Assembly: GCF_000315055.1 (NCBI RefSeq)
Contig: NZ_BAER01000028.1
Coordinates: 1 to 53,773, forward strand
Direction of reading: 5' to 3'
Length of the DNA: 53,773 nt
From: Paraglaciecola polaris LMG 21857
GTDB lineage: Bacteria > Pseudomonadota > Gammaproteobacteria > Enterobacterales > Alteromonadaceae
Every line of letters starts with the position of its first letter. Position 1 is the stretch's first letter. Both the position numbers and the translations under genes were made by a program. This document shows positions 45,934 through 53,773 of the stretch, in pieces. The notes under the pieces were generated by a model, which ran no database searches, was not told the origin of the DNA, and saw nothing but the letters and a program-made list of their open reading frames with translations.

Positions 45934-46392
45934 TCACCCGTTGTTCACGGGTAATTCAACAAACTCGACCCAGTATTTACCGAGTGCGCTCATCAGTGCC
46001 ACCAATCCCTCAAACGTGACAGGTTTGGTGATATAAGACGCCGCCCCAAGGTCGTAGCCTTTGACCATGTCTTCTTCTTGGGCTGAGGTGGTGAGAATAA
46101 CGATAGGAATACTGCGCAGCTCTGGGTCGAGCTTAATTTGCTCAAGCGCTTCCCGGCCATCCATGCGTGGCATATTTAAATCAAGTAAAATCAGGCCTGG
46201 ACGCGGCGCAGCATCTTTATCACTAAATTTACCTTCCCGGCGCAAGAACTCTAATAATTCCACACCGTCTTCAACACAGTGTAACTCGTTTAACACACGA
46301 CTTTCCCGCAGGGCGTCTTGGGCCAACAGGCGATCATCTTCATCATCGTCTGCCATTAAAATCACTATTGGTTTCGCTTTTGAATAAAGCAC
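45934..46392 (-). CDS. Single-domain response regulator (Rcp1-like)
   Basis: The 152-residue protein is one receiver domain. The acidic cluster ADDDEDD is at 14-20, the phospho-acceptor D71 is in ILLDLNMPRMDG and the conserved lysine K123 is in YITKPV. There is no output domain. The GTG at 46392 is the start, because GGGAG lies 6 bases upstream and overlaps the stop of the CHASE3 kinase; the longer frame from 46425 overlaps that gene by 32 bases. It probably passes phosphate from the CHASE3 kinase to the hybrid kinase. Confidence 0.9.
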   Translation of the reverse strand: MLYSKAKPIVILMADDDEDDRLLAQDALRESRVLNELHCVEDGVELLEFLRREGKFSDKDAAPRPGLILLDLNMPRMDGREALEQIKLDPELRSIPIVILTTSAQEEDMVKGYDLGAASYITKPVTFEGLVALMSALGKYWVEFVELPVNNG

Positions 46393-46393
46393 T

Positions 46394-47875
46394 CTACTCT
46401 CCCATATATTTGTTAACGACAGCATCTATCGGTAAGGTAACGGTAAACGCAGCACCTTCATCAGGGCTACTTAACGCTGTAATGGTGCCGCCGTGACGTT
46501 CAACAATGCGACGACAAACGGCTAAGCCAATTCCCGTTCCTTTGTAAGCAGTACGCCCATGTAAACGCTGAAACGGCGAAAATATCTTGTCTGCATAGGT
46601 TTGCTCAAACCCAATGCCATTATCTTTTATCGTAACAATACAGCACGGGACATCCATATGTTGTAATTCATCACGAATGTCTTTTTGCTCTACTGATACA
46701 GATATAACAGGCGGCACGTCGACTTTACGGAACTTCAAGCCATTGGATAACACGTTTAAAAACAGCTGATACATTTGGCTTGGGTCGGCACAAACCTTGG
46801 GCAATGGCTCAATGTTTATCTGTGCGCCACTTTCGCTTATCGCAATTTCTAAGTCGATGAGCACCTCTTCGAGCACATTGTTTAACTCTACATCAACAAA
46901 GTCTTTGCCTCGAGTGGTAATACGAGAAAACTCGAGTAAATCATTGATTAAAGTAGACATTCTAAACGCAGCTGTGGTCATACGTTTGATATAATCAACG
47001 CCCCTTTCATCGAGCTTGTCTTTATACATGGTGGTTAAGCGGTCACTAAATGCTTGAATTTTACGCAGGGGTTCCTGTAAATCGTGGGACGCCACAAAAG
47101 CAAAATCTTCTAACTCGCGATTGCTCCGCGACAGTTCTTCTGAGTAAATCGTCAGTTCTTGCGTTCGCTGGGCAACCTTGTCTAATAACTGTTCGTTTTG
47201 TTTTTCCAAGTCATCTTGATAACGGGTATTAATACTCAAGTTAATGCGCGCCATCAAAAACATACCTATGACTAATAACCCGCTGGTGATGGCCGACACA
47301 CCAAAGTTAACTTTGGCATCTCGTTGGATCCGTTTTAGTTGGCTGTAGAGCACTTGTCTGTGTTCGTACTCAGTATCAACCAGCTGCTTCATGGTTTTGC
47401 GAATTTCCCGATACAGATCGCGACCGCGGTTAGTCATAATTTGGCGCAGCGCGGACTTTTCACGCTCCTTGAGAGCAAGCTCTACTGTACTGGTCAGTTC
47501 ATGAATTTTTTCATTCACCAATACCAGTAAGTCTTTGATCCGCTCCTGCTGACCAGGAATTTCTGATTCAATACCTGAGACTAAAGCAATTTTTTCATCC
47601 AAGCTCTGTAACTCAGCATGATACGGATTAAGATACTCCTCATACTCAGTCAGCAAATAACCACGTTGGCCCGACTCAGCCACCACTACGGATAAATGCA
47701 GGCTCTCGAGACGCAAAATGATAATGCTGGTTTTATCTAGACTGGTTTGCACAGCAGTCAACTTGTTAACTGTGTTTAAAGCAATAGACAGATTTATGCC
47801 GATAATGCCCACCACTAGGACCGAAATAATGATCCAACTAGCGGTAGTATTACCAAACAACCGGTTTAAGCGCAT
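46394..47875 (-). CDS. Membrane histidine kinase with CHASE3 sensor
   Basis: The 493-residue protein has TM1 (about 13-33), a periplasmic CHASE3 domain (about 37-185, with ESGQRGYLLTEYEEYLNPY), TM2 (about 190-210), a coiled coil (220-255), HisKA with H264 in FVASHDLQEPLRKI and a HATPase domain with DNGIGF and GTGIGLAVC. The kinase core is of the phytochrome-like type, whose partners are usually single-domain receivers such as the one encoded next. The signal is unknown. The AAAGGACGC site precedes the ATG. Confidence 0.93.
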   Translation of the reverse strand: MRLNRLFGNTTASWIIISVLVVGIIGINLSIALNTVNKLTAVQTSLDKTSIIILRLESLHLSVVVAESGQRGYLLTEYEEYLNPYHAELQSLDEKIALVSGIESEIPGQQERIKDLLVLVNEKIHELTSTVELALKEREKSALRQIMTNRGRDLYREIRKTMKQLVDTEYEHRQVLYSQLKRIQRDAKVNFGVSAITSGLLVIGMFLMARINLSINTRYQDDLEKQNEQLLDKVAQRTQELTIYSEELSRSNRELEDFAFVASHDLQEPLRKIQAFSDRLTTMYKDKLDERGVDYIKRMTTAAFRMSTLINDLLEFSRITTRGKDFVDVELNNVLEEVLIDLEIAISESGAQINIEPLPKVCADPSQMYQLFLNVLSNGLKFRKVDVPPVISVSVEQKDIRDELQHMDVPCCIVTIKDNGIGFEQTYADKIFSPFQRLHGRTAYKGTGIGLAVCRRIVERHGGTITALSSPDEGAAFTVTLPIDAVVNKYMGE

Positions 47876-47925
47876 GAGCGTCCTTTTAAGTAACCTTATT
47901 TAGCCGCTTCTACGCAGCTAAAATA

Positions 47926-48159
47926 CTAGCTTGTTTCATCCGTGCGGGCATGTTCAGCCAACTTTTGTAATGCAGCACTGCTATCTTGACAGGCCACCAG
48001 TATTTTATCTAAAGCGGCTATCGCCTTCTCTCTTGGCATATCGTTTTCCAACACAAGCTTGACCATTTCTGCCTGCATTGAAATACGATTTAATGGATTG
48101 CGTACATCATGGATCAACGAATTGGTAGTGGGTGATTGTACGTCTTGTGTTGGTTGCAT
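47926..48159 (-). CDS. Stand-alone histidine phosphoacceptor (HisKA-only) mini-protein
   Basis: The 77-residue product contains a HisKA dimerisation and phosphoacceptor motif, SLIHDVRNPLNRISMQAEMV, with H17 as the likely phosphoacceptor. A second helix follows (about residues 40-68). No HATPase domain is present, so it cannot phosphorylate itself. It starts 3 bases after the stop of the NtrC-type gene, with GGGG as ribosome-binding sequence, and ends 50 bases before the CHASE3 kinase. The protein may act as a phosphotransfer carrier, a decoy for a kinase, or be the remnant of a larger kinase. Confidence 0.75.
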   Translation of the reverse strand: MQPTQDVQSPTTNSLIHDVRNPLNRISMQAEMVKLVLENDMPREKAIAALDKILVACQDSSAALQKLAEHARTDETS

Positions 48160-48162
48160 AAA

Positions 48163-49494
48163 TTACCCCTGAGCTTGGTTTTCCCAAGCATTTAAGCGGT
48201 TGTATAAGGTCTTAGTGCTAATTCCGAGCATTTCCGCCGCTAAGGTTTTATTGCCTTCGACTTTTTCTAAGGTCACGCGTATTAGCTCTTTTTCAACGTC
48301 GTCAATAGTTTGCCCTGCAGTCACCTGATTCGATGTCATTTGATTTTTTGCAAAAGGAGATTCAAAATTCTTTGGCAAGGTAATCTTGTTGCTCGTCGGG
48401 TCGCTCATGATAAATGCGCGATGAATAGCATGCCGCAGTTCGCGGATATTGCCCGGCCAACCATATGCTTTAAGCTGGTCGAGTTGGGCATTCTGCCATT
48501 CAAAATTAGTCTCGTTTTCAGCATTTAACTGTTCGATAAACGCCGTGGCCAATAGTGGAATATCCGCTAAACGCTCACGCAATGGCGGTATCGTGATCGG
48601 AAACACAGCTAAACGGAAATAAATATCTTCGCGCAGTACTTTACTCTGGGCAATTTCTTCAACCGTACGGTTAGTTGCTGAAATAACCCGGCAATCCACC
48701 GACGTATCTTTCACTGCGCCAACGCGAGTCACACGCTTACTTTCAAGCACTCTAAGTAAATTAGGCTGCATTTCCAATGGCATTTCAGTAATTTCATCGA
48801 GAAAAAGGGTGCCATTTTGAGCTTGTTCAAATACGCCGATTTTACGCCCTACAGCGCCGGTAAATGAGCCTTTTTCATGACCAAATAACTCACTACCAAT
48901 GAGTTCACGGGACAATGCACCACAGTTAGTGGCAACTAAGGGCCCCTCAACGTTGCTGGCCGTATGAATGGCATGAGCCACCACTTCTTTACCAACACCA
49001 CTTTCCCCCATGAGCATGACGTTAGCATTGGTTTTGCCGACTCGCTCGATCATCTGATAGAGCTCTTGCATCGCAGCTGACTCACCGACCAAGCAGTCGA
49101 AATGCTTAGTGATGGCAGACGATTTGGCTTTTTTTCTGGCCTTAGATTTACCTGACAGCACCTGCTCTAAATCTTCTCGCTGCAACGGTTTAACCAAATA
49201 ATTAACGGTAGGGCCGCACATGCCTGCAATGATGCTTTTCACCGAGGGGTGCCCGGTAATTAACGTCACAAAAGGCACTTTGTCGTGGGTGTTTAGTTTA
49301 TCAATCAGGTGCAATGCGCTGCCGTCAGGCAACATAAAATCAAGTAGTATGTGGTCAAAGCGTTGAAACTCGATACAGTTGTAGGCTTCTTCTAAACAGT
49401 TCGCGACCTCGACGTCATGGCCTAAGAACTCGATAATATTGCTCGCTACGTCGGTAAATTCCTTATCATCATCGACTAACAGTATTTGAGACAC
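48163..49494 (-). CDS. NtrC-family sigma-54-dependent response regulator
   Basis: The 443-residue protein has an N-terminal receiver (D52 in LLDFMLPDG, K102), a central AAA+ domain with Walker A GESGVGKE (163-170), sigma-54 loop GSFTGA (209-214, a variant of GAFTGA), Walker B LFLDE (230-234), R-finger region PLRERLADIP, and a C-terminal Fis-like HTH (LAAEMLGISTKTLYNRLNAW, about 417-436). It activates sigma-54 promoters after phosphorylation. The start is a GTG at 49494 with AAGGA 6 bases upstream. It is the first gene of the signalling operon. The target genes are not known; no obvious -24/-12 promoter was found nearby. Confidence 0.93.
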   Translation of the reverse strand: MSQILLVDDDKEFTDVASNIIEFLGHDVEVANCLEEAYNCIEFQRFDHILLDFMLPDGSALHLIDKLNTHDKVPFVTLITGHPSVKSIIAGMCGPTVNYLVKPLQREDLEQVLSGKSKARKKAKSSAITKHFDCLVGESAAMQELYQMIERVGKTNANVMLMGESGVGKEVVAHAIHTASNVEGPLVATNCGALSRELIGSELFGHEKGSFTGAVGRKIGVFEQAQNGTLFLDEITEMPLEMQPNLLRVLESKRVTRVGAVKDTSVDCRVISATNRTVEEIAQSKVLREDIYFRLAVFPITIPPLRERLADIPLLATAFIEQLNAENETNFEWQNAQLDQLKAYGWPGNIRELRHAIHRAFIMSDPTSNKITLPKNFESPFAKNQMTSNQVTAGQTIDDVEKELIRVTLEKVEGNKTLAAEMLGISTKTLYNRLNAWENQAQG

Positions 49495-49828: not shown

Positions 49829-49853
49829 AAAAAAGCCTGCTGAAAACAGGCTT
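49829..49853 (-). terminator. Terminator after the GNAT-C39 gene
   Basis: AAGCCTG-CTGAAAA-CAGGCTT forms a 7-bp stem. On the minus strand it is followed by TTTTTT, 26 bases after the stop. Confidence 0.85.
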
Positions 49854-49879: not shown

Positions 49880-51097
49880 CTATTTTTTGGATATTAACAA
49901 AGCCGTACGTAATTTGCTTTTACCAAATGCAGACAGCCTGAAAAAATCTCCCCGAGCAATCGGAATATGCTGACAGTCCATGGGTTGTGGGTGTAAATCA
50001 TCCGGATCAGGGTCATGTAGATACAAACAATCTTCATCTATGTGTGTAACTGTTACCCAATGCGGTATTTTTTTCCCATCCAGCTGATAGGTGCTGATCA
50101 AACTTATCACCGCGGCCCCCTTTGCCAAGCCGGTTTGCAAGGCATTTACATCAGGGTCGGTGTAAATAATGTTTATACCTTGAGCCTTAGCTTGTTGTAA
50201 AAATTGCCGATCAACCGCTTGCATGATGTATTTTTTATGCTCACTACGCACACCATCAATAAATAAAGGCGCTTTAGTGTTCACATACGCTGTGACCGAA
50301 AATCCCAATTGGTGAGCGGCCAGTGCTAAACCAATAGGATGACAGCCGCCGTGACCTGATGTCATAAAGATAGTCGTCGCTTGGCGCCAGATATCCAGCT
50401 CCAAAGACTGGGACATATCCAGTTTGGGGTTCAAATTCGCCATTGCCATCATCAGAGATGACGGCCCGCAGGTAAATTCTGTCGTCTGCTGATACCAAGG
50501 ATAAGTTGGCAGTGTTTGCAGCGACAGACTCTGCCGAATCGGTTTTTGCATACGCAGTGCATCTATCGAACCTTGATAGTAGTTGGCGTAGGTACCAAAT
50601 GTGCGGTAACCCAAGCTCTCATATAACTTAATCGCGCCTGTGTTATTGGTCGCCACTTCAAGACGCATAAAAAGTTTGTCTTGTTCTAAGGTATTTTGCT
50701 CTAACGCTAACAGTAGCTTTTTGCCCACCCCCAAGCCTTGAGCTTGGCGACTCACCGCAATGGAATACAGCCGCGCCAAACGCGTACCTTTGCGCATTAT
50801 AACCAAACCATAACCCAGCAAGACATCATTATGGGTCGCCACCATAAATACTCTGTGGCTATCAGCGGCCTTAAGCCAATGCATAAAACGGCGCTGACTT
50901 AAGCGGTCAGATTCGAAACTAGCATTTTCAAGTGCCACCAGCTGAGTAATATCGCCCAGCATAGCGCTGCGAATGTTTAGCTCACTTTCTTTATGCACAC
51001 CCAGCCCAGCGACATCGGGTAAATCGATATCAGATAAGCTGCGTGCAACAGATATTGGCGCATTTTGGTCTTGTTGCTTTTTGTGTCCCCTGGACAT
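49880..51097 (-). CDS. GNAT acetyltransferase fused to a C39-like peptidase
   Basis: The 405-residue fusion has a GNAT domain (about 40-175) with the acetyl-CoA motif QAQGLGVGKKLL (about 119-130), then a C39-type papain-like domain (about 200-400). Catalytic residues fit C39: Q204, C210 in EFTCGPSSL, H346 in PHWVTVTH and D362 in YLHDPDPDD. I start at the ATG at 51097, with GAGG 8 bases upstream, leaving one base to the preceding stop; a TTG at 51118 would overlap that gene. Operon partner is the ATP-grasp ligase. Likely the pair cleaves and modifies a peptide. The substrate is unknown. Confidence 0.88.
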   Translation of the reverse strand: MSRGHKKQQDQNAPISVARSLSDIDLPDVAGLGVHKESELNIRSAMLGDITQLVALENASFESDRLSQRRFMHWLKAADSHRVFMVATHNDVLLGYGLVIMRKGTRLARLYSIAVSRQAQGLGVGKKLLLALEQNTLEQDKLFMRLEVATNNTGAIKLYESLGYRTFGTYANYYQGSIDALRMQKPIRQSLSLQTLPTYPWYQQTTEFTCGPSSLMMAMANLNPKLDMSQSLELDIWRQATTIFMTSGHGGCHPIGLALAAHQLGFSVTAYVNTKAPLFIDGVRSEHKKYIMQAVDRQFLQQAKAQGINIIYTDPDVNALQTGLAKGAAVISLISTYQLDGKKIPHWVTVTHIDEDCLYLHDPDPDDLHPQPMDCQHIPIARGDFFRLSAFGKSKLRTALLISKK

Positions 51098-51098
51098 C

Positions 51099-52565
51099 TT
51101 ATTTGCCTCGTAACTCAAGACGGTTAGCGAATTCTTGCATCACCAACATGTATAATTCTTTGCCTAAGTATAAATCTTCTACTTTTGATTCTAAGCTCGG
51201 GTTGTCGTTGACTTCAATAACGTAAACTTGATTGTTTACCTGTTTGATGTCCACACCATACAAACCTTTACCTACAATAGCACTCGCTTTAACCGCCGCA
51301 TCGAGTACTGGTTTTGGTACTTCAAAAGTCGGCAATGTTTCAAAATCACCAGAGAAGTGTTTTTTCGAACTGTGGTTGTAAATTTGCCAATGGTTACGCG
51401 CCATAAAATAACGACATGCGTAAATCGCTCGGCCATTTAATACCCCAATACGCCAATCGAAATCGGTATAAACGAATTCTTGAATCAAGACTAACGCTGA
51501 TTGGCGCAACATTTCCACTAGCTTAAGCTTTAATTCAACCAAGTTTTCGACCTTGAAAACGCCAATTGAAAATGAGCTTTCTGGCAACTTCAATACCATT
51601 GGATAGCTAAATTCACCCTCCAGTAGTTCACACGTTTGATCACTGGAGTTAGACACAAAGCGGCTCTTAGGCGACGGTACCTTGTTGTAGCTAAATGCAT
51701 CGTGCAAAAATACCTTGTTGCAGCAACGCAAAATCGAGGTGGCGTCATCGATCACTTCCAAACCTTCTTGCTCGCCTTTGCGGGCAAGTTGATAGGTATG
51801 GTGATTAATTGCTGTGGTTTCACGGATAAATAACGCGTCAAACTGACTGATCATCGGCCCTTGTTTAGCCGTGATCACTTCTGCATTAATGCCCACTTGC
51901 TCTGCCGCTTTAACAAAGTTTTGGATGGCTTTGCTATCACTTGGGGCGGTTTTTTCTTCTGGGTTAACCAAGATCGCCATGTCCCAACGAGAACGTTTTT
52001 TGTTGCCACGACTACGCCAATATTTTTGCGTAAAATGCTCTAATCGCTCAGCAAATAACGGCCACAAGCTTGAATCGATTTCACGTATACCCAAGGCTTT
52101 CGGTTGTACACTCAAGCCTTTTTCATCACGGCTAAACGACAAACGTAAAATTGGCGCAGGGAAACGCTCAAATACATGCTTGGCAATACGCTTATGACGC
52201 TCATTTTGTGACCAGCCGAAAAACACCAATATTTCATCAGGCAATTCGTCGTCAATATGGGCGTACAGATCCGTGCTCATATACTTAGGCACAGGCGTTA
52301 ACATCTTGCTTTGATCATTAAGCGATTCGCTTAAATCATTGATCGTGTTTACGCTTGGCAACACTTTATGTTGACGCGCTTCAGCCAGCAAAGAACAGTA
52401 GTAACCCTGACTCAAATATTTATCTGTGTCACATAGATTAATGATGCGTGTTTTTGGCTCACCGACCTTAGGGTAATCAGCAAGATATTGGGCAAAATCG
52501 ATAACGGTGGCATCCAAACTTGGGAAGCCATCAGCATTATCGACCACAACGATTGTTTTAAACAT
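51099..52565 (-). CDS. RLAN-domain RimK-type ATP-grasp ligase
   Basis: The 488-residue protein has an N-terminal RLAN domain (about 1-155, beginning MFKTIVVVDNADGFPS) and a RimK-like ATP-grasp domain (about 285-485) with SYPMVLKLPESSFSIGVF and the metal-binding VIEVNDNPSLES. RimK-type enzymes join amino acids, often glutamate, to peptide or small-molecule ends with ATP. The ATG at 52565 has GGAG 9 bases upstream; an in-frame TTG at 52628 is not used. Its stop is one base from the next gene, so they are translationally coupled. A sigma-70 promoter lies upstream (52705-52732). Confidence 0.9.
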   Translation of the reverse strand: MFKTIVVVDNADGFPSLDATVIDFAQYLADYPKVGEPKTRIINLCDTDKYLSQGYYCSLLAEARQHKVLPSVNTINDLSESLNDQSKMLTPVPKYMSTDLYAHIDDELPDEILVFFGWSQNERHKRIAKHVFERFPAPILRLSFSRDEKGLSVQPKALGIREIDSSLWPLFAERLEHFTQKYWRSRGNKKRSRWDMAILVNPEEKTAPSDSKAIQNFVKAAEQVGINAEVITAKQGPMISQFDALFIRETTAINHHTYQLARKGEQEGLEVIDDATSILRCCNKVFLHDAFSYNKVPSPKSRFVSNSSDQTCELLEGEFSYPMVLKLPESSFSIGVFKVENLVELKLKLVEMLRQSALVLIQEFVYTDFDWRIGVLNGRAIYACRYFMARNHWQIYNHSSKKHFSGDFETLPTFEVPKPVLDAAVKASAIVGKGLYGVDIKQVNNQVYVIEVNDNPSLESKVEDLYLGKELYMLVMQEFANRLELRGK

Positions 52566-52704
52566 TTTACAGCGCTCCAAATAGCAATTTGACTTGTATT
52601 TAGGGCACCAAAAAGTGCAACAAGCCAAGCGAAATCAATTAGTTAATCAACAGCTCATGCTTGCCACATCAGGTAGGATGGTCTGGGCAATGATATTGGT
52701 GCGG

Positions 52705-52732
52705 AATATAGGCGTTACGTAGATTTAATCAA
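52705..52732 (-). promoter_or_regulatory. Sigma-70 promoter of the ATP-grasp/GNAT-C39 operon
   Basis: On the minus strand, TTGATT (52732-52727), a 16-base spacer and TATATT (52710-52705) match the consensus well. The transcript would have a leader of about 130 bases, with a small stem GCAC-CAAAAA-GTGC (about 52606-52619). Confidence 0.6.
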
Positions 52733-52828: not shown

Positions 52829-53773
52829 TTAATCAACCAGTTTTTGCAACTTTAAATCTTGGAAATCATAGCTAAAATCGATATCCGAAAACACGGGTAC
52901 AAGCTCGATATACGACAGCTTATTATTTTTGTCTCGATGTAACTGGACAAATACATCTGCCGCTAAGCTTCGGTCGTCCCAGCGCACTAAATAACGGTCT
53001 TTTTTGCTATCCTCATATATACCACCGATCAATTTACTCACTCTGGCTGAGCGCAACTGAATTCGGTCTTCTTTTTGTTCTAGGTAGAAGTCCCCAAGCC
53101 AGTCATCTCGGTATACACCTAATGCAGCTTGAATAAGCTTGTCCTGGGTTAACAGAGCGACCGGTGCGGATGTTTGATTGTGGTTTTTTTCCCTCGCTCC
53201 GCTGTTGGAAGTGCGGGGCGCAAAAGCGGCTAACCAATCCGTTTGATCATCACCCAGATAGGGTTTCATCAGGGTATACATCAAAGCACTACGCCCAGCA
53301 CTGGACTCTTGATTGGTTAATACCACTATACCTAAATCTAACTCAGGGAAGAAACTCACATATGAATACATGCCAGCTAAACTACCGCTGTGATGTACCC
53401 GTAAATGCCCGTCGACGTCATTTAATCGCCAACCTAATCCATAGGCGCTGAAATGAGTATTATTATGCTGTTTATCTGTGCCTGACACCGGCATTATGGT
53501 CTGTGGTGACCACATCTGTTTATGCTGCGCTAACGAAAACAGCCTATTGCCATCAGCTTTTATACCTTTATTTAGTTGCAACTGTGCCCAAACGAGCATG
53601 TCGCTCAAGCTGCATTGAATGCCTCCTGCGGCAGCGGATACATTCGGCCTATTTTCATCAATCTCCCGCTCAATCGTCGCAAGTTGCCCATTCACCACGC
53701 CGTGGGGAGTGGCAGCGAATTTTTGCTGGGCTTGCGGAATATGACCAGCAAAGCAGTACTGCATACCTAACGG
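52829..53773 (-). CDS. Beta-lactamase-family serine hydrolase with DUF3471 tail (partial)
   Basis: The reading frame runs off the right edge of the window; at least 314 residues of the C-terminal part are present. It has the HSG motif (VHHSGSLAGMYSYVSFFPE) that plays the role of KTG in penicillin-binding-protein-like hydrolases, and a C-terminal DUF3471 domain (about the last 100 residues). The catalytic SxxK and YxN motifs lie outside the window. Such proteins hydrolyse esters or amides, rarely beta-lactams. It is on the same strand as the ATP-grasp operon but 263 bp upstream with a separate promoter between, so a functional link is open. Confidence 0.85.
   Translation of the reverse strand, partial: PLGMQYCFAGHIPQAQQKFAATPHGVVNGQLATIEREIDENRPNVSAAAGGIQCSLSDMLVWAQLQLNKGIKADGNRLFSLAQHKQMWSPQTIMPVSGTDKQHNNTHFSAYGLGWRLNDVDGHLRVHHSGSLAGMYSYVSFFPELDLGIVVLTNQESSAGRSALMYTLMKPYLGDDQTDWLAAFAPRTSNSGAREKNHNQTSAPVALLTQDKLIQAALGVYRDDWLGDFYLEQKEDRIQLRSARVSKLIGGIYEDSKKDRYLVRWDDRSLAADVFVQLHRDKNNKLSYIELVPVFSDIDFSYDFQDLKLQKLVD

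Follow-up and report, generated by a model that had tools for sequence, protein, structure and literature searches.

What would a bacterium make with an ATP-grasp amide ligase and with a protein that joins an N-acetyltransferase to a papain-like peptidase domain, when both are encoded one base apart? The question is raised by a gene pair of Paraglaciecola polaris LMG 21857 (assembly GCF_000315055.1, contig NZ_BAER01000028.1), found in the stretch of 53,773 nucleotides that was analyzed here as a whole and is called the window. Our proposal, at about even confidence, is that the two enzymes form the core of a cytosolic pathway for building and editing one small peptide-like metabolite. The two genes and their domains are the following:

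51099 to 52565, reverse strand: RLAN-RimK-type ATP-grasp amide ligase of 488 amino acids (ATG at 52565, stop codon ending at 51099), assigned by Pfam and conserved residues
52071 to 52493, reverse strand: RLAN domain (Pfam PF14401), ligase residues 25-165
51111 to 51986, reverse strand: ATP-grasp half, ligase residues 194-485
49880 to 51097, reverse strand: fusion protein of GNAT and C39-like (DUF3335) domains, 405 amino acids (ATG at 51097, stop codon ending at 49880)
50528 to 50983, reverse strand: RimI/Ard1-like N-acetyltransferase domain, residues 39-190 of the fusion protein
49892 to 50503, reverse strand: C39-like papain-fold domain, residues 199-402 of the fusion protein, with Q204, C210, H346 and D362, assigned by PF11814, residue invariance and a profile match

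A first-pass annotation of the window had described a RimK-type ligase and a GNAT-C39 fusion encoded one base apart. The coordinates bear out the spacing, and all four Pfam domains score above their cut-offs: RLAN (126 bits, cut-off 25) and RimK (PF08443, 39.8 bits, cut-off 21) in the ligase, and DUF3335 "Peptidase_C39 like" (PF11814, 290 bits, cut-off 25) and Acetyltransf_1 (55.9 bits, cut-off 20.7) in the fusion protein, which scores 21.9 bits against the sister model Peptidase_C39_2, under the cut-off of 24. No NCBIfam model matches either protein above its own cut-off. The ligase reaches 80.5 bits against the RimK family TIGR00768 (cut-off 143.4) and the GNAT half 68.7 bits against the RimI model TIGR01575 (cut-off 86.4). 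Two proteins above the TIGR00768 cut-off are encoded on contigs C20 and C130 of this genome, and its RimI, above the TIGR01575 cut-off, is encoded on C31; given these separate copies, the pair was rejected as the housekeeping RimI and RimK.

The putative active sites are conserved. Q204, C210, H346 and D362 of the C39-like domain, previously called an intact set, do not vary across 42 aligned sequences, the window included. K284, K326, R372, D439, E451 and N453 of the ligase, which we take to bind ATP and metal, are invariant in 47 aligned sequences, the window again included, and align with RimK and LysX chains; an NHWQIYNH loop (residues 391-398) is also invariant in the ligase and differs from RimK in the alignment, in a part of the model with low confidence. 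E147 and Y159 of the GNAT domain are invariant in 42 sequences and align with E103 and Y115 of RimI, presumably its catalytic Glu and Tyr. The GNAT domain keeps the residues for RimI/Ard1-like N-alpha-acetyltransferase chemistry, which is its predicted activity. Structure prediction, which had been recommended for both proteins, followed by fold searches gave RimI and Ard1 as the closest folds for the GNAT half, and LysX, ArgX and RimK for the ligase; the lists for the fusion protein were filled by its GNAT half, so that they covered that half and not the C39-like one.

Linkage is evidence for a shared function. Four sets were used: the best 80 of 239 confirmed relatives of the ligase (including two loci of one assembly, L064 and L066), a class sample of 229 genomes chosen by even sampling, a phylum sample of 249 genomes (some of the same class as the class sample, with G086 counted in both) and 147 genomes of the window's family. 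RLAN is found in 50 of the 229 class genomes, in 49 of the 249 phylum genomes (52 places) and in 72 of the 147 family genomes. Strong DUF3335 matches (E < 1e-70, which excludes four weaker hits in G004, G016, G049 and G116, of which two are genomes with RLAN) occur in 34 class genomes, 33 of which also hold RLAN (Fisher p 4e-26, kinship not modelled); the other, G154, has no detected RLAN, and its locus (L099) encodes a full GNAT-C39 fusion. The two genes are adjacent or one gene apart in 30 of these 33 genomes (29 fetched loci and the window), the intervening gene in L106, L116 and L126 being a DUF2817 gene. They are on different contigs in G199 and G208, near contig ends, and in G060. That the two genes should recur together in other genomes, as the first-pass annotation expected, is therefore what is found.

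Among the best 80 relatives, 77 have a linked GNAT or GNAT-C39 gene: 71 a full fusion (state A) and six a GNAT without C39 (L017, L030, L032, L058, L059 and L075, with a short C39 match retained in L030). The 71 include L054, with a DUF155 gene in between, and L023, in which the contig ends inside C39 and which was moved by hand to state A from the automatic listing as GNAT only. Neither GNAT nor C39 is nearby in L018, L026 and L081. In the phylum sample, a GNAT gene is adjacent in 39 of the 40 RLAN loci read, 27 with the full fusion and 12 with GNAT only. Neighbours were read by six-frame profiles for which these loci themselves were the training set; the Pfam counts are independent evidence, the profile scores are not. 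L137-L156 of the phylum sample are only about 3.4 kb long, which limits the view to the nearest neighbours. The pair is seen in four orientations: co-directional with either gene first, divergent and convergent. Because the linkage survives rearrangement, as selection for a shared function predicts, the linkage of ligase, GNAT and C39 looks to be under selection, and the conserved pair supports the earlier idea that ligase, acetyltransferase and C39-like domain are one functional unit. As separate observations, large replicons of Azospirillum (seven) and Tistrella (one) (plasmid records H1-H8) carry genes for proteins with 39-43% identity to the entire GNAT-C39 protein, and a DUF3335 match is also found in the control genome of Methanosarcina acetivorans.

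The C39-like domain is an optional step and not part of the core, because it is missing from 6 of the 77 adjacent ligase-GNAT pairs in the best-80 set, 4 of 33 in the class sample and 12 of 39 in the phylum sample. On quick, unrooted trees, the change between fused GNAT-C39 and GNAT only occurs 15 times for RLAN (113 rows) and seven times for GNAT. Since the GNAT-only genes of L030, L086, L095 and L097 are placed among fused ones and those of L017, L032, L058, L059 and L075 group with the RimI of this genome (support 92), both loss of C39 and separate recruitment of a GNAT are possible. Against the profile of fused GNATs, the GNAT-only genes reach scores of 104-204 (72 for a second copy in L058), compared with at most 41.6 for nine other GNATs of this genome, RimI included.

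The other 17 class genomes with RLAN comprise four with GNAT only (L086, L093, L095 and L097), one with neither GNAT nor C39 (L091) and 12 with another set of partners, called state B: a C39-like protein (PF13529), RLAN, a GCS2 carboxylate-amine ligase (PF04107) and an FGase (PF05013), assignments made with Pfam on chosen members. The set is full in nine loci (L082-L085, L087, L088, L092, L094 and L096) and partial in L089, at a contig end, and L090, both with the C39-like protein and RLAN, and in L098, with RLAN and GCS2. In these 12 genomes, the state-B loci have no adjacent GNAT belonging to the fused family. Because state B is one clade on the RLAN tree (one change) and C39 switches between present and absent 15 times among the GNAT pairs, we conclude that the ligase is the constant part of the system and the GNAT or the GCS2/FGase pair the exchangeable part. 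Loci with the ligase and without nearby GNAT outside state B (L018, L026, L081, L139 and L091 of G116) could reveal which partner is dispensable.

State B also bridges the window's C39-like domain to known structures. A direct search with this half among solved structures found no relative. Its profile matches the state-B C39-like family with Prob 95 and E 3.6e-8, all four residues aligned, and that family in turn matches the ComA C39 peptidase (3k8u) with E 8e-5 for the Gln/Cys part. The expectation that the four residues would align with a known C39 structure holds by this route for the Cys part, which is significant; the segment with His96 and Asp112 of ComA matches weakly (i-Evalue 2.5e+03 alone).

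Metallohydrolases recur near the ligase in some lineages. An M42-like hydrolase is encoded directly upstream of RLAN in 11 of the 80 loci, and an orthologue 74% identical is encoded, unlinked, in this genome (G000:C18:17315-18358; L177:7247-8368), where it adjoins a phosphoribulokinase-like gene (named by eye). M42 is found in 28 of the 147 family genomes, and RLAN in 23 of these 28 vs 49 of the 119 others (p 1e-4, kinship not modelled). A DUF2817 gene lies within 3.5 kb of RLAN in 3 of the 29 state-A loci from the class sample and in 8 of the 27 from the phylum sample; strong DUF2817 matches (E < 1e-70) occur in eight class genomes, of which three hold RLAN, all three with DUF2817 beside the pair. 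DUF2817 was rejected as a general partner, being linked in some lineages only. ArgE lies within 3.5 kb of RLAN in eight class loci (L108, L109, L111, L113 and L118-L121) and a link to arginine metabolism is possible; the one such protein tested, from L109, is a true acetylornithine deacetylase above its cut-off. In L133, an ArgE-profile gene is found beside GNAT-C39 at a contig end. M14 occurs within 3.5 kb of RLAN in four loci, and a DUF155 (RMND1/Sif2-like) gene adjoins GNAT-C39 in 13 of the 80 loci (L005-L008, L020, L024, L025 and others). The search for conservation of the pair and of a third partner, proposed at the outset, thus returned a conserved pair, with M42 and DUF2817 recurring in some lineages. 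The state-B partners and the recurring metallohydrolases favour a small-peptide metabolite, and both states are accommodated when ligation, acetylation and amide hydrolysis are read as acting on a single small peptide-like compound.

RimK, LysX and ArgX ligate amino acids onto glutamate-type substrates through an acyl phosphate. From the domains and nearest folds, we infer that the RLAN-RimK ligase would use ATP to form an acyl phosphate and join the amine of an amino acid to a carboxylate, and that the RimI-like GNAT domain would acetylate the alpha-amine of an amino acid or peptide. The C39-like domain may cleave or transfer an amide bond of the same compound for trimming, recycling or editing, a step that would be optional because many genomes keep ligase and GNAT without C39. 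A metallohydrolase of the aminopeptidase or deacylase type (here the M42-like enzyme encoded elsewhere) may then dismantle the product or release a group. The substrates and the order of these steps are likewise part of the proposal. One published source states that DUF3335 members frequently occur as fusions with GNAT domains, which might act as peptide ligases or acetylate (PMC10318531, citing Iyer et al., 2009), and another describes a proposed acyl capping of ligase products for other ATP-grasp/GNAT operons (PMC4431377).

The pathway of N-acetylglutaminylglutamine amide (NAGGN), with Ngg, AsnO and an M42 enzyme (PA3459-PA3461), resembles this scheme in combining acetylation, peptide-bond formation and an aminopeptidase; the likeness is one of analogy, as the pair is built from other families. 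We take the glutamyl aminopeptidase of the NAGGN operon to be of the M42 family, and NCBIfam presumably holds a model for it. One RLAN-linked M42 protein, that of L056, scores 25.3 bits against PF05343 (cut-off 23.2) and, in contrast to what would be expected of the NAGGN enzyme, matches none of the NCBIfam families at E 0.001. In the NAGGN pathway, a first glutamine is acetylated and linked to a second one by Ngg, amidation is the task of AsnO, and the operon also encodes a glutamyl aminopeptidase (PMC8070244). The pair differs in having a C39-like domain and in its score against the Ngg equivalog TIGR03103 (cut-off 569), which is 31.6 bits for the GNAT half, with the ligase unmatched and the best protein of the genome at 175 bits; next to the pair, where no search for AsnO was made, no gene for an amidotransferase was noticed.

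Several observations weigh against a small-metabolite pathway. TIGR03103 is above its cut-off in nine of the 229 class genomes, and five of these nine also hold RLAN; the two are hence not substitutes, and the pair was rejected as a replacement for NAGGN synthesis. M42 is mostly unlinked, five of the 28 M42-bearing family genomes lack RLAN, and only four class genomes have M42, one of them without RLAN. Five of the eight class genomes with strong DUF2817 are also without RLAN, and the ArgE neighbours may be inherited synteny. RLAN occurs without nearby GNAT outside state B in 3 of the 80 loci, in L091 and in L139 (with flanks of only about 0.5 and 1.3 kb), and the GNATs adjoining RLAN do not form one clade relative to the nine other GNATs of this genome (quick tree, three changes). 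RimI and RimK modify proteins, so that a protein target fits equally. A broader proposal is one that we put forward tentatively, with less confidence than the pathway itself: RLAN modules across Pseudomonadota may make a widespread class of small acetylated peptide metabolites, such as a compatible solute, an amine store or a glutathione analogue, by two interchangeable forms, one with ligase, RimI-like GNAT and optional papain-like domain and the other with two ligases, a C39-like protein and an FGase-type deacylase.

The main competing explanation, which we regard as rather improbable, is that the pair writes and erases a protein tail, with the ligase adding amino acids to a protein, the GNAT acetylating the N-terminus and the C39-like domain removing the tail. 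RimK adds amino acids to ribosomal S6, and the pair's nearest relatives fit such a role: the GNAT half is closest to RimI and Ard1, which are protein N-terminal acetyltransferases, and the ligase to RimK and to LysX/ArgX, the latter acting on the carrier protein LysW. The coming and going of C39 on the RLAN tree (15 changes) would suit an eraser, and RimB counteracts RimK, one of the systems, together with RloC/RloA, in which a RimK-type or other ATP-grasp protein is coupled to a peptidase (PMC12239564). The peptidase described there is retropepsin-like and the part consulted mentions no GNAT (PMC12239564). The window's ligase is under the RimK-family cut-off. A protein target is also harder to reconcile with state B, whose GCS2-type ligase and FGase-type hydrolase are of small-molecule families, with the invariant loop unlike RimK (in the low-confidence part of the model) and with the separate true RimI and RimK of this genome. 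The ligase differs from LysX/ArgX in its extra RLAN domain and its loop, and no carrier protein gene such as that of LysW was noticed beside the pair, where no search with a LysW model was made.

We consider it clearly less probable that the system makes a glutathione- or phytochelatin-like compound, in which RLAN would act second, after a ligase of GCS2 type, to build a tripeptide-like compound, with the papain-like enzyme as transpeptidase. The operon of C39-like protein, RLAN, GCS2 and FGase in the nine full state-B loci is as this explanation predicts. In state A, the first bond would have to come from another enzyme or from a ready-made peptide: no such GCS2 gene lies beside any mapped state-A pair, that of the window included. 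The matches of the state-B C39 profile among solved structures are moreover C39 peptidases, and phytochelatin synthase is not among the 15 rows at E <= 1.

Very improbable, in our judgement, is the maturation of a ribosomal precursor, whose leader would be cut off by C39 before ligase and GNAT modify the peptide. The state-B C39 profile does match ComA and PCAT-type chains, catalytic Q, C and, weakly, H and D of the window's domain align with the C39 bacteriocin peptidases through that family, and double-glycine leaders are cleaved by the C39 peptidases that form part of ABC transporters (PMC10318531). The pair's C39 is fused to a GNAT and not to an ABC transporter, however: no ABC transporter domain is found in the pair and there is no PF03412 match at E 0.1. 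The spacing differs as well, with 136 residues from C210 to H346 in the fusion protein vs 79 from Cys17 to His96 in ComA. No precursor, including a double-glycine one, was found within 1.5 kb of the pair, in agreement with the first-pass annotation, which saw no obvious precursor gene between 52566 and 52828; the rest of the genome was not searched. Small frames of the window within this distance have matches only in L002-L004 (blastp E 1e-3, which is weak for peptides of about 20 amino acids), and the eight most widely shared sets of small frames in other loci look, on visual inspection, like fragments of neighbouring genes or frames antisense to them. With no transporter domain, no nearby precursor frame and a C39 that is optional, gained or lost repeatedly, the leader-cleavage reading of the first-pass annotation is weakened. 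Finally, some genomes have RLAN without nearby GNAT and G154 has DUF3335 without detected RLAN, as chance neighbours with no shared pathway might, but chance is a negligible explanation, given that the genes stay linked in four orientations and across the sampled phylum and co-occur as described above.

The local signals around the pair were also surveyed:

52705 to 52732, reverse strand: promoter-like TTGATT-16-TATATT, from a scan and conservation in close sequences
52566 to 52704, reverse strand: conserved 5' leader of the operon, about 140 bases, from conservation in close sequences
49833 to 49853, reverse strand: terminator-like hairpin of nine pairs with a T run, from a scan and a stem in close sequences

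As scan results, both kinds of site are at chance level, with 11 promoter-like sites in the region vs 9.8 +/- 3.0 in shuffles and five sites of hairpin and T run vs 4.8 +/- 2.2. Both promoter hexamers and the leader are kept in four of four close sequences (the window and L002-L004, whose ligases are 95-97% identical to that of the window), and the DNA just upstream diverges. A stem with changed letters is seen by eye at the terminator position in all four, L003 being without a clear T run. The self-contained operon of the first-pass annotation accordingly gains from the conserved site, leader and stem and not from the scans, and stays a prediction from sequence. Blastn of the leader over the fetched loci gave convincing matches in the window and L002-L004 alone, with two more rows at E 0.27, and against Rfam three rows, all far under the gathering scores; the leader may hold a regulatory structure. 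Upstream, a gene cut by the window end (52829-53773, reverse strand) encodes a protein of the serine beta-lactamase fold that carries a DUF3471 domain, and is apparently separate from the operon. Downstream (45934-49494, reverse strand) are genes for a response regulator and a histidine kinase, both named by eye, and a sigma-54 response regulator.

Our literature search, which left most subscription journals outside its coverage, turned up no study of the RLAN pair or its product. The name RLAN and a role in small-peptide synthesis for RLAN/DUF3335 systems were reportedly proposed by Iyer and colleagues in 2009; the pair has the same Pfam domains, our proposal shares the small-peptide idea, and the pair is a member of a kind that is said to have been predicted then. 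The linkage counts, the exchange with C39-like, GCS2 and FGase partners and the M42 orthologue were obtained in this analysis. The wide distribution of RLAN, together with the intact active sites, suggests that a common metabolite or modification is still to be mapped. As the two alternative partner sets are expected to lead to related compounds, the proposal that the pair builds and edits a small peptide-like metabolite is directly testable.

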